The notes under the pieces were generated by a model. That model ran no database searches, had not been told where the DNA came from, and saw only the letters and a program-made list of their open reading frames with translations. Of a DNA stretch of 20,208 nucleotides, positions 6,000-20,190 are shown piece by piece. This DNA is from a virus: IMG/VR virus record IMGVR_UViG_3300030451_001805, positions 1 to 20,208 of that record. One strand, written 5' to 3'. The first letter of the stretch is position 1. Each line of letters opens with the position of its first letter. Both the position numbers and the translations under genes were made by a program.

Positions 6000-6395
6000 T
6001 TATTCTCCCCATTTTTTGACTTTTGTTCCGCCAAAGTAATCGACGGCCAAATTTTCTTTTTTAAGTAATTCTGCCACATTTCCTTTCTCGCAAAATATAT
6101 CTCCCAGCACCCTACCGTATTTGTCGGTGCCGTAAGACTTTAAGGTTATATCACCTACCAACCATTCTTTCAACTTCTGTTTAGCAAGTAAACCTAGTTC
6201 TTTTTCTTTAGCTCGCTCTGGATATTTTTTAGTATTAATCCTAGATTCAGGCGTATCTATCGCATTGATTCGCACGGATTTATTGTGTAGTTGCACTGAA
6301 AATCCAAGATCTATAGTCTCTAAACGTACAGTGTCTCCGTCTATAACTTTTTTTAGTTTGCACTTATAGACAAAAGCATCGGGTGATTTAGCCAT
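6000..6395 (-). CDS. Staphylococcal-nuclease-like (thermonuclease) protein
   Basis: 131 residues, a nearly minimal SNase-type OB-fold. The residues that bind Ca2+ and catalyse cleavage in micrococcal nuclease have counterparts: Asp21 in VIDGDTVR, Arg42/Asp47/Glu50 in VRINAIDTPES, and Arg95 in KYGRVLGDI. It should therefore cut DNA or RNA to 3'-phosphates. No signal peptide is visible, so it would act in the cytoplasm or only after lysis. Lying between a holin-like gene and the lysozyme, it may degrade host nucleic acid late in infection or reduce lysate viscosity; that is inference. The start shares one base with the preceding stop. Confidence 0.88.
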   Translation of the reverse strand: MAKSPDAFVYKCKLKKVIDGDTVRLETIDLGFSVQLHNKSVRINAIDTPESRINTKKYPERAKEKELGLLAKQKLKEWLVGDITLKSYGTDKYGRVLGDIFCEKGNVAELLKKENLAVDYFGGTKVKKWGE

Positions 6396-6868
6396 TAGTC
6401 ATCGCCTTTATGTGACGCTCCAAAGTAAAAAGATATAATCGCGCTAGCCAAGCCACCTAAGTATCCTAATACTAAATTTATAAGTGCCTCACTGTTTTGC
6501 TCTGGTGGTTGTAGTGTTACTAAGAATATATAGCCTAAAAATCCAGCTATTGTTGCAACACCAATTATTCTAGCTGTCCAATCTTTACTAAACATACCTC
6601 TAGCGTTTTGCTTGTCTTGAGTTTCTAATCTGAAAACATCAACATCCAGCTCTTTCATTTGCACCTCAAACTCTTGTTCTGCTTTTTTAAGCTCTAACAT
6701 TTGTTCTGGTGTTGCATTTTGTATAGCTTGTTGAATTGATTTTTGGTCATTTGATACGCCTAGTACGCTTGCAATTTTAGACATTGCCATATTACCCATT
6801 GGACCACCAAGCGCTGTGCCTATGGTTGGAGCTACCGCACCTACTAAATTTTTTAATAATCCTTTCAT
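6395..6868 (-). CDS. Holin-like membrane protein
   Basis: 157 residues. An N-terminal Gly/Ala/Met-rich amphipathic stretch (1-40) is followed by a charged helix (about 41-95) and two predicted membrane helices (about 99-119 and 129-150), with a short charged C-terminus SHKGDD. This layout resembles the GTA/phage 3TM-type holin family, with FSKDWTARIIG just before the first helix. It would permeabilise the inner membrane to release the lysozyme encoded two genes downstream. The start overlaps the adenylate cyclase stop by four bases (ATGA), so it is cotranslated with the curli-like module. Assignment rests on topology and neighbourhood rather than a diagnostic motif. Confidence 0.7.
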   Translation of the reverse strand: MKGLLKNLVGAVAPTIGTALGGPMGNMAMSKIASVLGVSNDQKSIQQAIQNATPEQMLELKKAEQEFEVQMKELDVDVFRLETQDKQNARGMFSKDWTARIIGVATIAGFLGYIFLVTLQPPEQNSEALINLVLGYLGGLASAIISFYFGASHKGDD

Positions 6869-8622
6869 ATAGATTCCTTTACTGTATATATGTTAAGTTT
6901 CTTTTTTTTACCCTTAACATTAATAGGTTTTAGTGATTTTAATGCAAATTTGCAATTTTTTGCAATATTTTCACCAATAAGTATATCAACACCAACCTCT
7001 TTTGTTGCTGACTCTAGCCTTGCTGCTGTATTTACAGGATCGCCTATAGCTGAATAATCAAACCTAGATTCAGACCCCATATTTCCAATACATGCGAAAC
7101 CAGCTTGAGTCCCTACGCCCACTGCAACTGGAGTAGAAAGTGTTTTGTTTAGTTCAGCTATGCCTTTTTGTATATCTATTGCAGCCTGAACGGCTTTTGT
7201 TTCGTGATCCTCCAAATCTAAAGGTGCTCCAAAAATAAACATACCTGCATCACCAATAAATTTATCTGTCATACCACCTAATTTTTGCACGGCATTTACT
7301 TGCACAGTTAACGTCTTGTTCATAATATCAGTTACTTCTTCTGGAGATAGTTTTTCTGATAAAGCAGTAAATCCTCTTAAATCTGTAAAAAGAAACGAAC
7401 AATATTTTTTTTCTCCACCAAGTTTTAATAAACTTGGATTATCTTGTAATTGTTTTACTTGTCGTGGATCTAAATAATGTTCAAATTGTTTTTTAATTTG
7501 TTGTCTTAGTTTGTATTGCTCTCTAAACCTAACGTAAAAAATAGCGCTACCTTGTATAAACTCTGATACAAAAGTCCAAGAAAAATCAACAAGATAACCA
7601 GTTTTTATAATATAAACACCGCTTATAAAGGTTGCGGCCATGAATAAACCGCCAAATATAAGTGATTGTGTCATACCTGCATAACCAAAAATAATTGAAA
7701 CTATTATTAAGCACGAAGCAAACATAATTAATTCAGCTGCTATAGCCCAATCTGGGATATAAGGTGAGTCTTGTATAAGTATTGATTCTGCAAGTGCTGC
7801 TTGCACTTCATGAGGCGAAAGTAAGCCAACGGGGGTTGCAACGGTCGGAAACACGCCTGGAGCATTGACAGAAACAAAGACAAATCTATGGGCAACATTG
7901 AGTTCCTGTAAATTTGTTTGTGGTGTGTCCACCCAAGAGATCCATTTGCGGCCTAGATTGTCTACATCAACGGGAGGTAAGCCTTGTACAGTAATCTGTC
8001 GCATACCATTATCATCGCCTTTTATAATGTAGGTTTTTGCACCAGCTAATACTTTTAAAACTTCCGTTCCAAAAGATGCAACAAAACCATCTGGTGTTTG
8101 CATGAGTAAAGGCATGCGCCTTACAAGATTATCTATTTCAGTGGGAGCCGTAGACAAACCTTGAGGAACATCTATGAATATTGGGTCGTTTGCAACAACT
8201 CCCTTTGCCATAATACCATTAATATTTTCACCAAGTAAAACTGTTCCGCTTGTTGGTGGGTATGTACCGTTATCATATTCAAACATCGTTAAGATGCTTG
8301 GACTATAATCTAAGGCCATTAAAAACATTTCATCGCCACCAAAACGATCTGGATTTGGTAAAGATATTACCCAACCAACACCTATAGCGCCTGCCTCTAA
8401 AATATCCATGTGTATTTGTGCTAACTCTTGTCTTGGAAAAGGCCAGCCACCAGATTTTTGAATATCCTCTTGCGTGATGTTTAGCACTACAAAATTACCA
8501 CTTGGATCGTATTTTTTAACAAAAGTATCGAAAGTTTGTAATTTTAATATTTGCAAAGGGTATAACTGAAACAACAGTGGTAAGGCAAGTATTATAAATA
8601 CTATGAATATTACTTTTTTCAT
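6865..8622 (-). CDS. CHASE2-domain membrane adenylate/guanylate cyclase
   Basis: 585 residues. An N-terminal signal-anchor helix (3-24) precedes an extracytoplasmic CHASE2-like sensor domain (about 30-285; ITQEDIQKSGGWPFPR near 49-64 matches the CHASE2 W-P-[WF]-x-R signature). Several membrane helices follow (about 289-370), then a short linker and a class III cyclase domain (about 402-585). The catalytic set is intact: metal-binding Asp414 (FTDLRGF) and Asp458 (FIGDAG), purine-selecting Lys454 (DKF) and Asp528 (AIGDPVN), and transition-state Asn531 and Arg535 (NTAARLE). The Lys/Asp pair predicts ATP to cAMP. It would sense something outside the inner membrane and raise cAMP in the infected cell. 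It overlaps FecR-like and holin-like genes by four bases at each end. CHASE2 cyclases are familiar in bacteria, but one inside a phage late operon is unusual. Confidence 0.93.
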   Translation of the reverse strand: MKKVIFIVFIILALPLLFQLYPLQILKLQTFDTFVKKYDPSGNFVVLNITQEDIQKSGGWPFPRQELAQIHMDILEAGAIGVGWVISLPNPDRFGGDEMFLMALDYSPSILTMFEYDNGTYPPTSGTVLLGENINGIMAKGVVANDPIFIDVPQGLSTAPTEIDNLVRRMPLLMQTPDGFVASFGTEVLKVLAGAKTYIIKGDDNGMRQITVQGLPPVDVDNLGRKWISWVDTPQTNLQELNVAHRFVFVSVNAPGVFPTVATPVGLLSPHEVQAALAESILIQDSPYIPDWAIAAELIMFASCLIIVSIIFGYAGMTQSLIFGGLFMAATFISGVYIIKTGYLVDFSWTFVSEFIQGSAIFYVRFREQYKLRQQIKKQFEHYLDPRQVKQLQDNPSLLKLGGEKKYCSFLFTDLRGFTALSEKLSPEEVTDIMNKTLTVQVNAVQKLGGMTDKFIGDAGMFIFGAPLDLEDHETKAVQAAIDIQKGIAELNKTLSTPVAVGVGTQAGFACIGNMGSESRFDYSAIGDPVNTAARLESATKEVGVDILIGENIAKNCKFALKSLKPINVKGKKKKLNIYTVKESI

Positions 8623-9740
8623 CCAGAGCTTTGCGTTATGTTGATTGTTGAGTCAGCCGTGCCATTGACTTGTATCACCTTAGAAACTCCATCTTGCGTA
8701 AATATTATGTTGTATGCTTGATCGCTGTTTACCAAAACCTGCGCTCTTTGATTTACCATACGCATAAATTTTATTTGACTACCTTGTATTATAGTTGTTA
8801 CCTGTGTTTCTACATCTTGTCCAAAGTTTGTTCCGACTAATTGAATTCCACTTGAAAAATCTGCTAGATTATCCTCGTCTTTTACATCAAGCTCATCTAG
8901 AACATCAAGTAAATCTTCTAACAGATTTACGTTGAGTAAGTCAATGTCGAGCTCTGAAAAGTCAATATTATCTTCTTCATCCCAAATATCCTCATCTGAT
9001 AAAAAATCTATATCTAAATCAGTAAACTCTAAGTAATCCGCTTGTTCTGTTTGTGTTTCTTCATTTTCTACAAGTTGTTCTTTGGGTGGTGAAACAATAA
9101 GCATGTTATCTATAAAGTTTAAATCTATGTCTAAGGTTACTGGTTTTGTTGGCGCAACGTCATAAGCAGAAGTTGTTGTTGCTTGAAATGGTTTATTTAG
9201 CACTTGTTGTCCCATAGCTGTTTGCACCACTATTTCGCCACTTGCGTCTCCAAACTCGTTTGGTAATAAAATTATTAATGATTTACCAGTAATATCGATA
9301 GTGCAAACAAAATCTGTACCTTGCACAAAAATCTGAGAGCTAGGAGTAGATAAGGTGATGTTTTTTTTGTTAAGTTTATTTACATTACCGCTAATAAACC
9401 GAATGGTGCCGCTAGCAAACTGAAGAGCCATTTTAGATTTATCTGGGTTGGGATCATAAATATATTCATCAATAAGAAGTTCAGAGTGTTCAGTAAGTTT
9501 TACCGTGGACTCATCAAGAAATGTAATAGCTATTCGACCTGCGCTAGTTTGCACATTGTCCAAAGAGTTTATGTCAAAGTCTAAGGTCGCGTCATACGGC
9601 TCATCGCGATAGACTCTACCGTAACCTGTTAATTCTGTTATATCACCTATAGAATCAGCATGAAGTGGTGGTACCACCGTCATTTTGAATAATACAGATA
9701 TTAGAATTACTTGTATTTGCAATAACTTGTAACCAATCAC
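8619..9740 (-). CDS. Exported FecR-domain protein
   Basis: 373 residues. Residues 1-29 look like a signal peptide (Lys5, hydrophobic core about 6-18, possible cleavage after LHA). Residues about 55-175 carry a FecR-type beta domain: VQTSAGRIAITFLDESTVKL-like strands, a GTIRFISG strand, and LSTPSSQIFVQGTDF, the characteristic TP-x-[AS]-x-[IV]-x-V-x-GT core. A highly acidic Asp/Glu/Leu stretch spans 222-295, followed by a C-terminal beta region. FecR domains are periplasmic sensor or surface-anchor modules. In bacteria, FecR-domain proteins are often neighbours of CHASE2 cyclases, as here. No ECF sigma factor is nearby, so classical FecIR signalling is unlikely. The signal-peptide start forces an 86-base overlap with the curlin-like gene; the alternative ATG 9683 would lose the signal. 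Confidence 0.85.
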   Translation of the reverse strand: MIGYKLLQIQVILISVLFKMTVVPPLHADSIGDITELTGYGRVYRDEPYDATLDFDINSLDNVQTSAGRIAITFLDESTVKLTEHSELLIDEYIYDPNPDKSKMALQFASGTIRFISGNVNKLNKKNITLSTPSSQIFVQGTDFVCTIDITGKSLIILLPNEFGDASGEIVVQTAMGQQVLNKPFQATTTSAYDVAPTKPVTLDIDLNFIDNMLIVSPPKEQLVENEETQTEQADYLEFTDLDIDFLSDEDIWDEEDNIDFSELDIDLLNVNLLEDLLDVLDELDVKDEDNLADFSSGIQLVGTNFGQDVETQVTTIIQGSQIKFMRMVNQRAQVLVNSDQAYNIIFTQDGVSKVIQVNGTADSTINITQSSG

Positions 9741-10383
9741 GTGCTAATGTAGATGCCTGGGTAATGTTCATAGTGTTGCTGCTACCGTCAAGATCTAAAT
9801 TAAAGTATGCCGAGGTCGCCGCCGTGTTACCGCTATAACCACTACCTGTAAAATTAATAGTATTTGAACTACCGTTTATATCCATATAGTTGGTTGCGTT
9901 TTCATAGTCAATGTCAAAATCTAACTCATTACTATCACCCAGTATTATCCAATCTAAATTAAGATAGGAAGAGTTAGCGTTTTCACCTATTTTTATATCA
10001 GCCTCGTTACTTGAGCCTGTTACATCTATATTTAGATCAACATAGTCAGCAGTAATTAAGCCAGTAGAGTTCATCAAAACATCCCAAACGTTGCTATCGC
10101 CATCAAACTCAAAGAAACCTGTAAAGTTATCACCGTCTATAGCATCGGATCTAAATATATTGCTTGATCCGATTTGATTGATGTCTAATGCCATGGTTGT
10201 ACCGTCTAGGTCAAGAGCAGTCATGGTACCAGATACCGCAGATGTGCCACCAATAAGGTTTGATGATCCTAACTGTTCAAGATCAATAGTAGCGTTTGAA
10301 CCGCTTTGATCTACGTAGATTTCATTGTCCGCAAAAATTGAAAGTGAGAAAAAAAGTAAAAATAAATATTTATTCATTTGCAT
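9655..10383 (-). CDS. Curlin-like secreted repeat protein
   Basis: 242 residues. Residues 1-18 form a clear signal peptide (Lys5, hydrophobic 6-17, cleavage after IFA). The mature part repeats a motif ending in G-[SD]-S-N about every 22-33 residues: Asn30, 42, 75, 98, 126, 152, 174, 203 and 228. Each is flanked by alternating-hydrophobic strands and often preceded by LDLDG, FEFDG or MDING turns. VDQSGSN, LEQLGSSN and INQIGSSN recall the curlin consensus (Gln-x-Gly-x-x-Asn). It is much more acidic than CsgA and largely lacks the second Gln. The C-terminus has two Cys (230, 242). It lies directly after csgG, overlapping it by 14 bases, so it is the likely substrate of that pore. ATG 10377 (Met3) is an equally possible start. 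Confidence 0.82.
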   Translation of the reverse strand: MQMNKYLFLLFFSLSIFADNEIYVDQSGSNATIDLEQLGSSNLIGGTSAVSGTMTALDLDGTTMALDINQIGSSNIFRSDAIDGDNFTGFFEFDGDSNVWDVLMNSTGLITADYVDLNIDVTGSSNEADIKIGENANSSYLNLDWIILGDSNELDFDIDYENATNYMDINGSSNTINFTGSGYSGNTAATSAYFNLDLDGSSNTMNITQASTLARDWLQVIANTSNSNICIIQNDGGTTTSC

Positions 10384-11215
10384 ATTGCCAAAAATTTCGT
10401 TCGCGACCTTGTTTGATAATATCTACAATACCAATTTCTATAGCCGATTGCAAAGCGATAGACTTACTTTCATTCATGGCATTTCCTGTTTCAAATTCTA
10501 CTAACTCTGTATCGTTTGAATGAAACCTAAATACGTCAGATGATAAGCCGACTGATAAAATTGTTCTTGTTGTAAGATTTTCTAACAATATTTCACCAGT
10601 GCTTACAGATACAACACGTATTGAAACAAGCACTGTATCTTCACGATACTGTTTGCTGGCGCCGACGCCTAAATATCTGGCGCCTGCACCGCCGCTAGTA
10701 AGGTTAGTATTATAATCGACAATACCTCCTTCTATAATAACGCCAGCAAACAACAGGGGAAGTTGTTTTGTTTCATCTTCAAACTTTTCTCTAGTTGATC
10801 TAATAATCTGCCTTTCACGTGTGATGTGATCGATACCGCCTCGCTCTACTACGCGAAAAAAACCAGATTGTTTTAATGCTCTAATTAAATAAACCTCTGG
10901 TGCTTGTGTCATGGCTGTGCTGAAATTAGCGTAGCCATCCACAGATTTTCTTTGACCTGTGTAATCTGCAAACTTATATACTGCTGCCACTGGTTGTACT
11001 TCGGGTACGGGTATTTCTTGTATTTCTTTAGTAATAGGTTCGTTTATAAAAGCGTCTTTAGAAAAACACTTAGCCTTACTTACTATTGATACGACATCTT
11101 TATAATCACCCTCTGGGTTTGTAAGACATGGAGAAATTAGTTTGGTGTGCGAAACGCAACTAGCTACCAAACCCAAAGTCGCCAATAGGAATGGTAATCT
11201 CAGTAGTTGTTTCAT
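10370..11215 (-). CDS. csgG: CsgG-family curli secretion pore lipoprotein
   Basis: 281 residues. A lipoprotein signal ends in the lipobox VASC (Cys20). CsgG forms a nine-subunit, 36-strand outer-membrane pore for curli subunits. Family landmarks are clear: AVYKFADYTGQRK (78-90), the constriction-loop region ANFSTAMTQ (96-104), ERGGIDHITRERQIIRS (124-140), GGAGARYLGVG (175-185) followed by RVVSVSTGEIL (200-210), and VFRF near 228-231. Asn97 and Phe98 match the pore-lining Asn55/Phe56 of E. coli CsgG. The Tyr51 position seems displaced, with a Tyr at 95. The segment between the lipid Cys and the core is about 20 residues longer than in E. coli, with extra Cys30 and Cys50. The start lies inside csgF (56-base overlap), because the lipobox needs it. 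Confidence 0.95.
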   Translation of the reverse strand: MKQLLRLPFLLATLGLVASCVSHTKLISPCLTNPEGDYKDVVSIVSKAKCFSKDAFINEPITKEIQEIPVPEVQPVAAVYKFADYTGQRKSVDGYANFSTAMTQAPEVYLIRALKQSGFFRVVERGGIDHITRERQIIRSTREKFEDETKQLPLLFAGVIIEGGIVDYNTNLTSGGAGARYLGVGASKQYREDTVLVSIRVVSVSTGEILLENLTTRTILSVGLSSDVFRFHSNDTELVEFETGNAMNESKSIALQSAIEIGIVDIIKQGRERNFWQYANE

Positions 11216-11705
11216 CTAGCGTGTTATAGATAGTTAGGGTTATGTAAGTCCCGTCGCTGGACCAACTAATGATGTTGTCAAATAATGTAAAAGATCCTGT
11301 GGTTGATGGATTCTCGCCAAAAAGTTGCTCTACTATTTGTCTGGAAATTTGTGCAAAAATCCGTGACTCGAGATTACGAGTAAATCTGCTTATCACAGAA
11401 TTTTCCTCATCACGTTTTCTTTGTTCTTCTAGGGCCTTGAGATCTGCCTTTAGTTGCTCACGTCTTGAAAACTCTTGTTGTTCGATGGTCAAATAATGTG
11501 CACTCTGTCCAATGCCAGAAAAACTTGGAGATTTGAAGTGAAATTTAATCTCATCTGAATTAACGTTTTGTGCAAGGATTAAAGCAAACATAATAAAACC
11601 AATAAAAAAAGCCCATACGGCTATTCGTGTTTTTTCTATTTCTTCTTGTTTTTTAATCTTTTCTTTGGTCATTCCTGTCTGCCTTTGCAATTTTGTTACT
11701 GTCAA
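11160..11705 (-). CDS. csgF: CsgF-like curli assembly factor
   Basis: 181 residues from ATG 11705, or 170 from ATG 11672. A charged N-terminus (Lys/Glu) precedes a membrane helix (about 28-46). Residues 53-64, IKFHFKSPSFSG, match the CsgF N-terminus (T-F-x-F-x-N-P-x-F-x-G) that plugs into the CsgG constriction. A helical middle (about 70-130), charged and longer than in E. coli CsgF, ends in RNLESRIFAQISRQIVEQLFG like the CsgF helix. The C-terminal beta part (138-174) ends TTTEITIPIG, like CsgF's T-S-T-I-Q-V. In E. coli CsgF caps the pore on the cell surface and helps nucleate fibres. The long charged stretch before the hydrophobic helix is odd for a signal peptide and could be a membrane anchor. 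Confidence 0.85.
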   Translation of the reverse strand: MTVTKLQRQTGMTKEKIKKQEEIEKTRIAVWAFFIGFIMFALILAQNVNSDEIKFHFKSPSFSGIGQSAHYLTIEQQEFSRREQLKADLKALEEQRKRDEENSVISRFTRNLESRIFAQISRQIVEQLFGENPSTTGSFTLFDNIISWSSDGTYITLTIYNTLDETTTEITIPIGDFGFGS

Positions 11706-12003
11706 TCAGCTGTGGTACACCTAGTATAGTCTTAATAAGTGTATCTTGCCTAATTATTTCATTATCTAAACTGCGTATTCTATCTATCAATGCTACCAAA
11801 ATACCATGTTGAGAATCAAGTTTTGTGCCGAGCCTTTCTTCTAGTGCTGATATTTGTCCCTCTACTTTTTCATCAACTGTGTCTAGTTTAGTTTCCATGC
11901 CGTCAACAATTCGCATGATAAGTTTATAAATAAACCAGCCTAGACCTATTGCTGCCGCTATAGGAAATCCAACCTCTTGGATTAAAGTTACTGCTGAATC
12001 CAT
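11653..12003 (-). CDS. Small membrane protein with coiled coil, holin-like
   Basis: 116 residues. The N-terminal hydrophobic helix (about 11-31, GFPIAAAIGLGWFIYKLIM) is followed by a long amphipathic helix or coiled coil (about 34-95) and a charged tail. The GFP[IV]A-helix-then-Lys/Asp-coil layout resembles small phage proteins of the YvrJ or BhlA/UviB type, some of which act as holins. It lies immediately downstream of an XhlA-like gene and overlaps csgF by 20-53 bases depending on the csgF start. It could be a second lysis protein or a membrane anchor for the curli-like apparatus. The holin idea is inferred from topology. Confidence 0.6.
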   Translation of the reverse strand: MDSAVTLIQEVGFPIAAAIGLGWFIYKLIMRIVDGMETKLDTVDEKVEGQISALEERLGTKLDSQHGILVALIDRIRSLDNEIIRQDTLIKTILGVPQLIDSNKIAKADRNDQRKD

Positions 12004-12004
12004 A

Positions 12005-12187
12005 TTAGATCAGCTCTGCTATAACGATGGCTCCAACTATAAAAGGGTAAACAGCCCAAATCATGTTTTCTAATTTATCAAACCTTTTAGATCCATCTTC
12101 AAGACGCTTATCTATGCTTTTATACAAAGCTCTACACTCTCTTTCATGTGATTCAATTTTGTTTAAAGCGTCTTTTACTGTTGCCAT
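12005..12187 (-). CDS. XhlA-like coiled coil with C-terminal membrane helix
   Basis: 60 residues. Residues 1-40 are a charged, heptad-like helix; residues 41-58 (ENMIWAVYPFIVGAIVIAEL) form a C-terminal membrane helix. This tail-anchored architecture is that of haemolysin XhlA and similar phage proteins paired with holins. The neighbour one base downstream has the opposite arrangement (membrane helix first, then coil), so the two may pair through their coils. The start codon shares its A with the TAA stop of the preceding gene (TAATG). The function is inferred from architecture. Confidence 0.65.
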   Translation of the reverse strand: MATVKDALNKIESHERECRALYKSIDKRLEDGSKRFDKLENMIWAVYPFIVGAIVIAELI

Positions 12188-12362: not shown

Positions 12363-13070
12363 TTATATATTTTCTTCCACCACATCCCAACAGTTAAGGT
12401 TTGATGCAATAGTTCTTCTCTCACCCTCACCTTTAAAAGGATATACCATGTGTTGTAACCACGATGGAAATATTAATAGTTTACCAATTTCTGGCGTCAT
12501 AACAAATGATTGAGCTGGTGCTAGTCTTTCACTGTCTAACACCGACACTCTGCCATACTGAAAAGCAATGCAACCATCTGAGTGTCCACTTTCATTATAC
12601 AAAGAATAATTAGGTGTGTTTGCGACCGCTTTTGCACCTATTTGAGGTGGGACTTTTGTCCAAGCTGTTGTTGATATACCCATAATTGTTTTAGTGCCAT
12701 GATCGTGTATTGGGTTGTAATCACCATCATAACTGTGCACTGACCAGGTTTCGTCGATTTCTACTTTTTTTGCACACTTTAGAGGATTACCCGCAGCCGC
12801 AAACTGATTTATATATTCAACCGAAAGTGCTGTAACAAATTTATTGTAGCTTAGTAAACGAGGATCTTTGTGGTCTAAAAGCAGCTGCTCGCCTTTATGT
12901 ATTTGACCCACTAAACTTCCCGCTAATGATTTTTTGTTTTTATTTTGCCTATATTCGTCTATATAATTATTTACGTCATCAATAATTTCTTGAGGCATGA
13001 ATGTTTCTAGCAAGTAAACAGCAGGCAACACTTGCATTTTAAAATGCACTCTATCGTCGCTATTTTGCAT
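12363..13070 (-). CDS. 2OG-Fe(II) oxygenase-like protein
   Basis: 235 residues, resembling the phage-encoded 2-oxoglutarate/Fe(II) dioxygenase-like group (double-stranded beta-helix). Likely metal ligands are the histidines of NPIHDHG (122, 124) and His207 in LLIFPSWLQHMVYPF, with Arg218 or Arg219 in GERRTIASNLN binding 2-oxoglutarate. The substrate is unknown. Such enzymes are frequent in marine phages and are proposed to hydroxylate proteins or modify nucleic acids. It sits between tail-associated genes and small membrane proteins in the same operon. No good ribosome-binding site precedes ATG 13070; Met12 (13037) is an alternative start. Confidence 0.75.
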   Translation of the reverse strand: MQNSDDRVHFKMQVLPAVYLLETFMPQEIIDDVNNYIDEYRQNKNKKSLAGSLVGQIHKGEQLLLDHKDPRLLSYNKFVTALSVEYINQFAAAGNPLKCAKKVEIDETWSVHSYDGDYNPIHDHGTKTIMGISTTAWTKVPPQIGAKAVANTPNYSLYNESGHSDGCIAFQYGRVSVLDSERLAPAQSFVMTPEIGKLLIFPSWLQHMVYPFKGEGERRTIASNLNCWDVVEENI

Positions 13071-17630: not shown

Positions 17631-19370
17631 TTATTCTTCCTCAAATATATTTAGTGTGTTTGGGTTGTAGTTTTTTGTAAATTTGTGTAAACTGGTATTG
17701 ATGGAAACTTTAGAGACATTATATTTTTCTTGGGAGCGATCACCAGCTGTCATTGTTGATGTCACTCCAGAAAAAAGCGCTGGATTCATATTGCCAGTCA
17801 CAGAGATTGAGCTTGGTTGGAGAGAGGCTACGCCAGACCAAGTAAAAGATTTCTTTGTTGACGGCTCTAGATTATCAAAGTCCGAGTTTGAAAACATGTT
17901 CGGTGTCATTGGCGACAATCTGCCAGACTTACCAGCACTTACATAACCGCCAGAAAAAAACCTTTCTACAACATCTTTAAAAAACTCTGGATCTATGTCT
18001 TTGCCCGCTGCCTCAAATATTTCTTGCATAGTTTTTTCTAACCTTAGGCCCTCTGCTTTTATTTTTTTGATGTCAGTGCCGTCGGGTAATCCAAAATTAG
18101 TTTTTCTATACGCCTCATAAAAACCGTGTGCTTTATCTGCTGCGTCTAGCATAGGCTGAGTCACTATACCTATTTCACCTATAATTGTTTCGCCGTTTGG
18201 TCCTGTAACCTGAACGTTAAGTTTTCTATCTAAGTAACCAGATTTTTTCATCAATACTCGTTCGCCGTCTACCGTTGGAAATAATTTAGCTATGGCCTCT
18301 GCCGCTTGTTTTTCTTGTTGCGGTGTATTTACCACAATTCTTGTTCGTATTGGATCTGTTATTTGTGAGAAGTCACCATCATATTTGGTCATAACTTTTT
18401 CAATCGTACGTGGCATAAGTTTCACTTCGCCTACAGGAAAGCCAGTGGCCTCATCTATTCGTCCGATTTTTTTGCCGCCCACGGGATTAAATCCTTTGCC
18501 TAAATTTAAACTTTCACGCACGCCGTCAATGGCGCTTTGAAATTGTGGATTTAGTCTTAAGGCTCTATCAAAGAGTTGCTCTGCACTTGTTATGTCGCCT
18601 TGGTGTGCATTAAAAGTAAATTTAAACTGTTGCTCCATTTTATTACCAAGTTGTCTTACAGGTGACTCAAAGGTGGGATTGCCTAAGGTTGGTAATAGTT
18701 TCGACGCATCTGCTTGTCGTTTTACGTTTTTATTTCTTTTTCTAATAAAGTCAAAAGTATTGTATTCTTGTAGGCTATCAAAAATTTTCACGGGTATTTT
18801 TGTGGTTCCAGCCGATTCAAGAGCATCTAATGTTGCCTTACCTCCAAGTTGCTCAAACGTACCATCTGGTTTTTTTAACACCTCTATTGGCTGTCTTTTT
18901 TCGACTGTTACTCCCTTATAAGAAGATCCGCTCGCTGATTTTTCTAATAGTTTTTTAGCCTCATCTAGACGTTTTGCCTCTGTTTTTACAGGTTGGCCCT
19001 CTATATCCTTTGGCTTGGTTATGTTTTTAGAATCAACCACAGCATCGGCTTGCTTGGTGTCTATGCCCTTTAACAAAGATTTAGGTCCTCTAAGTAAATC
19101 ACCTATCAGAGGTATTGCGCCTAATGCTGATAATCCAGCAATACCACCAGCTATGGCAGCTTGTTTAAATCTACCCTCTTTGATATCGCGTGCAGCGTCT
19201 CTGCCATATTTGCCCGCAGCTGCAATATCCATAGCCATGCCAGGCGGTGTGAATCCTGCTGCAATCTGTGCAACCAAGGGTACGTTCTCCTCGTAGCCTT
19301 CAACAGCAATATCTAATAGATCTTTGTCAGCTGAACCGCCTTGTTGGAATATATCAACATCTTCGTACAT
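17631..19370 (-). CDS. Large phage protein with ParB-like and RelA/SpoT-like domains
   Basis: 579 residues. Residues 30-100 are Gly/Ala/Ile-rich with hydrophobic stretches (AAIAGGIAGLSALGAIPLIGDLL), like the pre-toxin or membrane-interacting segments of polymorphic toxins. Residues about 155-200 (PIEVLKKPDGTFEQLGGKAT, then LDALESAG, IPVKIFD) resemble a ParB/sulfiredoxin-like fold. Residues about 315-425 resemble a RelA/SpoT nucleotidyltransferase. There, GDFSQITDPIRTRIVV carries Asp339 and Arg344, SGYLDRKLNV carries Tyr379, GEIGIVTQPMLDAADKAHGFYEAYR carries Glu399 and His415, matching D-x-x-x-x-R, GY, E-x-Q-x-x-T and H-x-x-Y landmarks. It might make an alarmone or pyrophosphorylate a nucleic-acid target, or be an inactive scaffold. 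A role as ejected effector or tail component is inferred from its place before fibre genes. ATG 19370 lacks a ribosome-binding site. Confidence 0.75.
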   Translation of the reverse strand: MYEDVDIFQQGGSADKDLLDIAVEGYEENVPLVAQIAAGFTPPGMAMDIAAAGKYGRDAARDIKEGRFKQAAIAGGIAGLSALGAIPLIGDLLRGPKSLLKGIDTKQADAVVDSKNITKPKDIEGQPVKTEAKRLDEAKKLLEKSASGSSYKGVTVEKRQPIEVLKKPDGTFEQLGGKATLDALESAGTTKIPVKIFDSLQEYNTFDFIRKRNKNVKRQADASKLLPTLGNPTFESPVRQLGNKMEQQFKFTFNAHQGDITSAEQLFDRALRLNPQFQSAIDGVRESLNLGKGFNPVGGKKIGRIDEATGFPVGEVKLMPRTIEKVMTKYDGDFSQITDPIRTRIVVNTPQQEKQAAEAIAKLFPTVDGERVLMKKSGYLDRKLNVQVTGPNGETIIGEIGIVTQPMLDAADKAHGFYEAYRKTNFGLPDGTDIKKIKAEGLRLEKTMQEIFEAAGKDIDPEFFKDVVERFFSGGYVSAGKSGRLSPMTPNMFSNSDFDNLEPSTKKSFTWSGVASLQPSSISVTGNMNPALFSGVTSTMTAGDRSQEKYNVSKVSINTSLHKFTKNYNPNTLNIFEEE

Positions 19371-19401: not shown

Positions 19402-20190
19402 CTATTCGTGAAGGCCTTGGAACTTACGCTTGAGTATTCTTTGCACTTTATGGAAGGGAAAGTCCTCGTAGCCTGGATGCGAACTTTGAATCTGTTTAGC
19501 TATTTTTCTCGCTCCAAGTCCCTTAGCTCTGAGTGCATAGATATGTTTTAACACTGCTTGCTCCTCTGGTATAGGCACTAACTTGGTTCTACGTCTGCTA
19601 CCAGAGTCATCGTATTGCTTTTCATAACCAAAGGGTGTTTGTCCTCCGATTGAGTAGCCTCGCTCTGCATAAACAAGTTTACCGCCGTTCAGCCTAGACA
19701 TAATCATTTCTCTCTCTATCTCAGCGAACTGAGCCATATTCGTAACAAGCTGTTGGTTAGCTATCCTAGTCATATCCATTTTTGCCTCAAGACCAGTCTT
19801 TTCTTTTTCTTTGGGTAACACCACTGGTATGTCTGCAAACATATCGCAGAAGTAAAGTGTAATACCAGTGTCCTCTAGAGTAGGAATCATGTTGACCATT
19901 TCTAAAAAGGATCTTGCAAGTCTATCTAGTTTGGTTGCTACTATCACGTCATTCGCATCCATAGTATCTGTCAGCTCTCTAGAGCCTGGTCGCTCTAATA
20001 AAGGTTTCATACCGCTAATACCAGCGTCGGTAAAAAACTGATCGACTTTGCGACCACCATATTTATTGGCTACAAACTCCTCAATCGACTTCTTTTGCTC
20101 GTCTAGTGAAGAGCCGTCTTTGACCTGTTGCTCAGATGATACTCTGATATAGCCATAGATATTGTTTACTTGTTTTCTTGGTTCAATCAT
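19402..20190 (-). CDS. Serine recombinase (resolvase/invertase family)
   Basis: 262 residues. The resolvase catalytic domain (about 10-165) shows the nucleophile Ser18 in GYIRVSSEQQ and the KLDRLARS motif (87-94), with Asp89, Arg90 and Arg93 conserved, plus QFAEIEREMIMSR on the long E helix. It forms a 5'-phosphoserine link to DNA. After a GGQTPFGYEKQ linker typical of larger serine recombinases, residues about 200-262 hold a helix-turn-helix-like DNA-binding part with LGARKIAKQI. It is larger than Gin/Hin (about 190 residues) but far smaller than phiC31-type integrases. It could integrate the phage, resolve dimers or invert DNA. No inverted repeats around the fibre genes were noticed. Confidence 0.9.
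   Translation of the reverse strand: MIEPRKQVNNIYGYIRVSSEQQVKDGSSLDEQKKSIEEFVANKYGGRKVDQFFTDAGISGMKPLLERPGSRELTDTMDANDVIVATKLDRLARSFLEMVNMIPTLEDTGITLYFCDMFADIPVVLPKEKEKTGLEAKMDMTRIANQQLVTNMAQFAEIEREMIMSRLNGGKLVYAERGYSIGGQTPFGYEKQYDDSGSRRRTKLVPIPEEQAVLKHIYALRAKGLGARKIAKQIQSSHPGYEDFPFHKVQRILKRKFQGLHE

Follow-up and report, generated by a model that had tools for sequence, protein, structure and literature searches.

Why would a marine phage carry genes for a curli-type outer-membrane secretion pore, along with those for a repetitive surface protein and for what looks like a signalling circuit? The question is raised by a 20.2-kb IMG/VR virus record (IMGVR_UViG_3300030451_001805; its whole length of 20,208 nucleotides is called the window here), in which five overlapping genes on the minus strand encode homologues of CsgF and CsgG, a protein with a signal peptide and curlin-like repeats, a FecR-domain protein that is exported, and a class III adenylate cyclase with a CHASE2 domain. 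An earlier note on this DNA had placed these five genes correctly, and Pfam matches CsgF, CsgG, FecR, and CHASE2/cyclase; the unit reaches one gene further upstream than first noted, to a small gene directly upstream of csgF whose product is a coiled-coil protein with a single transmembrane (TM) segment. The arrangement is already known: contrary to the earlier note, which knew of no described unit with substrate, FecR, and cyclase, exactly such a unit was published in 2022 (Wittmers et al., 2022; PMC9599517), and its status as undescribed is thereby overturned. We favor, with moderate confidence, the reading that an HTVC023P-type podophage, with SAR11 as its probable host, uses the unit to export a curlin-type surface protein late in infection, along with a sensor circuit that reaches from the periplasm into the cytoplasm.

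The unit starts on its upstream side with the small gene (11653..12003, minus strand, as are all that follow), which encodes 116 residues and matches phrog_18771 (E=1e-17). The csgF homologue (11160..11705; PF10614, E=3e-15, over cut-off; phrog_35372, E=8e-36) carries the motif FKSPSFSG; its open reading frame (ORF) begins at a TTG at 11705, the probable start being the ATG at 11672. It is followed by csgG (10370..11215; PF03783, E=1e-44), which encodes a lipoprotein pore subunit with the lipobox VASC, and by the gene for the putative substrate of the type VIII secretion system (T8SS; 9655..10383), with a signal peptide, GxxN repeat turns, and a C-terminal Cys pair. The FecR-domain protein (8619..9740; PF04773, E=1e-8; phrog_37870, E=2e-58) has an acidic linker and a C-terminal β-region, and the cyclase (6865..8622) combines CHASE2 (PF05226, E=5e-23) with the class III catalytic domain (Guanylate_cyc, PF00211, E=3e-19). 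Since the ORFs overlap, by 56 nt between CsgF and CsgG and by 4 nt between FecR and cyclase, translational coupling of neighboring genes is suggested. Two components of type VIII secretion are recognizable from these matches, namely the pore, with its CsgG domain and lipobox, and the cap or chaperone, CsgF; a profile built from 14 phage CsgG proteins further matches the solved E. coli CsgG (3x2r) at E=3e-63. A record titled Salmonella phage S.Kent 1-2-1 (OR851715.1) also holds a csgG-like gene, within merely 1,499 bases, and may be host DNA instead of phage.

The recurrence of this arrangement was the check that the earlier note had asked for, and the arrangement does recur. In 2.9 million viral contigs, 272 relatives of the window CsgG were found, the best 80 of which were kept; these loci, picked by their similarity to this CsgG, are no sample of all phages, and their CsgG proteins group into about 18 clusters at 90% identity. 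Wherever the flank suffices, each partner gene is present (csgF in 75/75, curlin in 73/73, fecR in 68/68, cyclase in 55/55, and the small upstream protein in 72/72, with one or two copies per locus). Order and strand are identical in all 50 fully flanked viral loci, as is the published order csgF-csgG-csgA/B-fecR-(csgA/B)-adenylate cyclase, and HTVC008M and Melnitz, two distantly related myophages, have the same order; with 50 out of 50 loci agreeing, the arrangement is not due to chance, and the module acts as one inseparable six-gene unit at every locus tested. Most matches in 'bacterial genomes' carry the whole module as well: the contigs L087, L088, L089, L091, L094, and L096, from metagenome-assembled genomes (MAGs) labelled Pelagibacter, Rhodobacteraceae, and Flavobacteriaceae, have it in phage-type form and therefore look like phage contigs binned with bacteria. 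Conversely, none of 10 bacterial csgF loci (five alpha- and five gammaproteobacterial, up to about 10 kb on each side) holds a gene for FecR, for a CHASE2 cyclase, or for the small membrane protein, in agreement with the published statement that bacterial curli operons do not include them. That the whole unit was taken over from a bacterial operon is rejected on these 10 loci, a small sample.

In the curlin-like protein, seven GxxN repeat turns are invariant across 15 viral orthologues, and the AlphaFold2 model begins with a signal helix and continues in repeated strand-turn-strand units (mean predicted local distance difference test score, pLDDT, 80; predicted template-modelling score, pTM, 0.74). 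In HTVC008M and Melnitz, the same position is held by 'curlin-associated' proteins. The curlin-like assignment is thus supported by the turns, by a fairly confident predicted fold, and by the position in the locus, instead of by the score for the curlin repeat family. HTVC008M and Melnitz each have a second curlin, in which Curlin_rpt is over cut-off; that of HTVC008M (L082, 10638-11960; Curlin_rpt, 5e-8) also has a PA14 domain (3e-6), which is found in none of 21 podophage-type records. PA14 domains are often sugar-binding, and the domain would fit an adhesive product; the window phage does not have this second gene. When the window is compared with its close relatives L003, L005, L006, L008, and L009, the ratio of non-synonymous to synonymous substitution rates (dN/dS) is 0.015-0.027 for the curlin gene, near that of the terminase (0.010-0.023), and 0.009-0.024 for the small upstream gene; the values for CsgG, FecR, cyclase, and CsgF range from about 0.05 to 0.14. 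The constant retention of the curlin gene and its very low dN/dS suggest that the exported product matters, and not the pore alone; such strong purifying selection argues against a bare pore.

The small upstream protein appears, from its position and copy number, to be the gene given as a histidine kinase in the published description. The proteins at this position form a family of 83-118 residues, each with a coiled coil and a single TM segment; the copies in HTVC008M and Melnitz also match phrog_18771. No kinase domain is found in ten family members by Pfam, even at E<=10, and HATPase_c is absent from 18 of 18 records of T8SS phages, the complete HTVC008M and Melnitz included, with 14 of 14 control genomes positive. 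The histidine-kinase label is therefore questioned and looks wrong; this concerns the label, and not the membership of the gene in the unit. That a true histidine kinase is located elsewhere in these phages is rejected on the absence of HATPase_c from the same 18 records. A faint resemblance to YvrJ (E=0.14) accompanies a faint one to holins (phrog_4898 at 1e-4 for the Melnitz copy, phrog_1296 at 0.015 for the window copy). In the window, a 60-residue protein with a coiled coil, a C-terminal TM segment, and a weak 'hemolysin' PHROG match is encoded directly upstream of this gene (12005-12187, minus strand), retained mostly in nearer relatives.

The holin resemblance of the sixth protein bears on a lysis-type role, as put forward for Melnitz (PMC9004378), in which CsgG and CsgF would form a lysis-timing or depolarizing pore, analogous to a pinholin or a gated secretin, with the remaining genes as accessories. 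The surroundings in the window are compatible with this, as is a pore that has no CsgE gate: the cyclase gene overlaps by 4 nt that of a holin-like protein with three TM segments (6395..6868; GTA_holin_3TM, weak, E=0.019; phrog_1544), beyond which lies a phage lysozyme (5516..6079; PF00959, E=1e-35), both on the minus strand and outside the unit. The earlier note's description of the module as sitting between phage lysis genes thus holds on the downstream side only; the upstream flank has two small membrane proteins, a 2-oxoglutarate (2OG)-Fe(II) oxygenase, and a tail fibre. However, the presence of these downstream genes also means that the phage already encodes its own lysozyme and holin-like protein, and in HTVC008M and Melnitz the module does not adjoin annotated lysis genes. 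CsgG, moreover, belongs to the outer membrane, where a holin function is unexpected, and the substrate gene is invariably retained and strongly constrained. We consider a lysis role rather unlikely.

The two remaining genes appear to form the sensor part of the unit. In the window protein, the FecR domain is the sole family accepted by Pfam and follows an N-terminal signal-like segment; neither an anti-sigma domain nor a TM anchor is found ahead of it, so that a role as an 'iron regulator' is not supported by its domain composition. Its structure model is unusable (mean pLDDT 50). An uptake function for the pore, serving iron, vitamins, or other nutrients and cofactors during infection, with FecR signalling iron, has been proposed (PMC9599517; PMC7029224) and draws on the FecR name; the missing anti-sigma part of iron regulators and the constant retention of the curlin gene both speak against it, and it is very unlikely. 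What the neighborhood of FecR in bacteria points to is a partnership with the cyclase: FecR-domain ORFs adjoin CHASE2 cyclases at 4 of 30 alphaproteobacterial CHASE2 loci (with flanks of about 1.5 kb; the pair is divergent at three of the four), and in a Polaromonas MAG (L099) the two are on the same strand and overlap; L122 also shows such neighbors. This adjacency suggests that the FecR protein and the CHASE2 cyclase are a sensor pair. The cyclase has the features of class III, namely, besides CHASE2, the two metal-binding Asp, the Lys/Asp adenine pair, and the Asn/Arg pair, and its active site is intact in nearly all of 69 phage cyclases (D414 in 69/69, K454 in 68 of 68 readable, D458 in 69/69, R535 in 67/67, D522 in 65/68, N531 in 64/67). 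Three cyclases, those of Melnitz (L083) and of the MAG contigs L088 and L094, have Ser at both the adenine-binding D522 and the ribose-binding N531, and may differ from the others in substrate or activity.

Taken together, the supported reading, already outlined in the earlier note and strengthened by the recurrent synteny, is that the phage encodes a type VIII export pore along with a cell-surface substrate of its own and a cyclic AMP (cAMP) circuit. CsgG would form an outer-membrane pore during infection, with CsgF as its cap, and export the curlin-like repeat protein, so that the infected cell would be coated with a curli-type β-repeat product. The FecR protein would report the state of the periplasm, the pore, or the fibre to the CHASE2 domain of the cyclase, which would set the synthesis of cAMP and so carry the signal into the cytoplasm. 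The benefit would most likely lie in an altered surface of the infected cell, leading to superinfection exclusion of competitors or to the capture of neighboring cells; the earlier note had suggested superinfection exclusion, aggregation, permeability, or release as possible roles. Homology, order, conservation, and the intact active site are observed; we infer the export, the formation of fibres, the contact between FecR and CHASE2, and the benefit. The viral T8SS module is reported to be expressed in metatranscriptomes (PMC9599517). As to the phage itself, the large terminase subunit is 62.7% identical to that of 023Pt_psg01 and 58-59% to those of the Pelagibacter phages HTVC023P and HTVC027P (59% for HTVC027P), and the portal protein likewise matches HTVC023P-type phages; the terminase likeness places the window with these podophages, which makes SAR11 the probable host.

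Several points weigh against this reading. The host is deduced from terminase similarity, and the terminase of DSL-LC04, a phage assigned to Gammaproteobacteria, is equally similar to that of the window (59%). Curlin_rpt (PF07012) scores below its cut-off in the window substrate (E=0.0044; 17.4 bits against 20.7), and a Foldseek search of the model against the PDB gives no match at E<=0.001, the bacterial amyloids FapC and CsgA turning up solely among the insignificant matches. CsgE, the periplasmic gate, is encoded in none of 13 phage records, the complete HTVC008M and Melnitz included; it is described as enhancing, and not essential, for curli secretion (PMC7029224). Cultures infected with Melnitz did not clump (PMC9004378). 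Lastly, a canonical receptor for cAMP is nearly missing from the presumed host family: proteins binding cyclic nucleoside monophosphates (cNMPs) occur in only 2 of 60 genomes of the SAR11 family, one of the two being a bin of 1.6 Mb in which a phage contig is present as well, as compared to 42 of 58 in Alphaproteobacteria at large.

This last point leads to the possibility that the cyclase acts on host physiology or defense by itself, as a nucleotide drain or as a decoy of cyclic-nucleotide immunity, with the FecR-cyclase pair hitch-hiking on the export genes. The catalytic domain resembles Pycsar cyclases, the pair is unlinked to csgFG in the bacteria examined, and the cNMP-binding domain PF00027, nearly absent from the host family, is also found in none of 15 phage records, several of them incomplete genomes. 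The PycC profile matches are, however, confined to the shared class III cyclase domain, and an effector with a cyclic-nucleotide-binding domain is lacking in the same 15 records, on which grounds an identity with Pycsar was dropped; furthermore, FecR and cyclase are linked to csgFG in all sampled phages. An independent cyclase is therefore quite improbable. For the export reading, the scarcity of receptors weakens the coupling to canonical cAMP regulation that the earlier note had proposed, and the target of the cAMP is probably not a CRP-type regulator. Class III cyclases occur, among the 60 SAR11-family genomes, solely in two MAGs, both of which hold the phage module itself. Tentatively, the phage might bring a full FecR/CHASE2/cAMP circuit into a host family lacking both a class III cyclase and a cNMP receptor of its own, with cAMP serving as an orphan messenger to some phage or host protein, or in a non-transcriptional use linked with late infection and the export pore. 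This orphan output is the part of the system most worth following, as it raises the sharp question of what, in the ocean's most abundant bacteria, senses a second messenger made by a phage.

Elsewhere in the window, all on the minus strand, are the 2OG-Fe(II) oxygenase (12363-13070), a GroES-like co-chaperonin (380-820), and, by the tail fibre, an adjacent pair of DUF7936 proteins (PF25590; 13328-13675 and 13770-14144). Upstream of the tail-fibre genes lie a serine recombinase/invertase (19402-20190; Resolvase, E=8e-26; integrase and DNA-invertase PHROGs) and a 579-residue protein (17631-19370) with a RelA/SpoT-type match over residues 316-415 that is under the Pfam cut-off (E=0.009), and with no match in PHROG or the PDB; several related contigs retain its gene beside that of the serine recombinase.

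Among known systems, the bacterial FecR/CHASE2 neighbors (such as L099 and L122) share with the phages the FecR-domain ORF beside a CHASE2 cyclase and differ in that, at the 10 bacterial csgF loci, such pairs are unlinked to csgF and csgG. The curli system of E. coli (csgBAC/csgDEFG) shares the CsgG pore, the CsgF cap, and a repeat substrate, which in the phages is putative, whereas the phages lack CsgE, have the small membrane protein, FecR, and the CHASE2 cyclase in addition, and show strongly diverged curlin repeats. Closest is the published module of HTVC023P-type phages and pelagimyophages, with a histidine kinase (sometimes two), CsgF, CsgG, CsgA/B, FecR, an optional second CsgA/B, and adenylate cyclase (Wittmers et al., 2022; PMC9599517); lineage and order are alike, but the window has a single gene of the upstream family, which no search identifies as a histidine kinase, and no second curlin gene. 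Three amendments change the published picture: the 'histidine kinase' gene or genes have no kinase domain, the FecR protein has no anti-sigma part, and the cyclase has an intact active site in a presumed host family nearly devoid of receptors and without a class III cyclase of its own. The curli loci of the pelagimyophage HTVC008M and the methylophage Melnitz, where csgF and csgG were reported earlier or in parallel (PMC7029224; PMC9004378), differ from the window in having two upstream small membrane proteins, an extra curlin-type gene ahead of the cyclase (with PA14 in HTVC008M), and a location away from annotated lysis genes, yet they share with it the same six-gene core in the same order.

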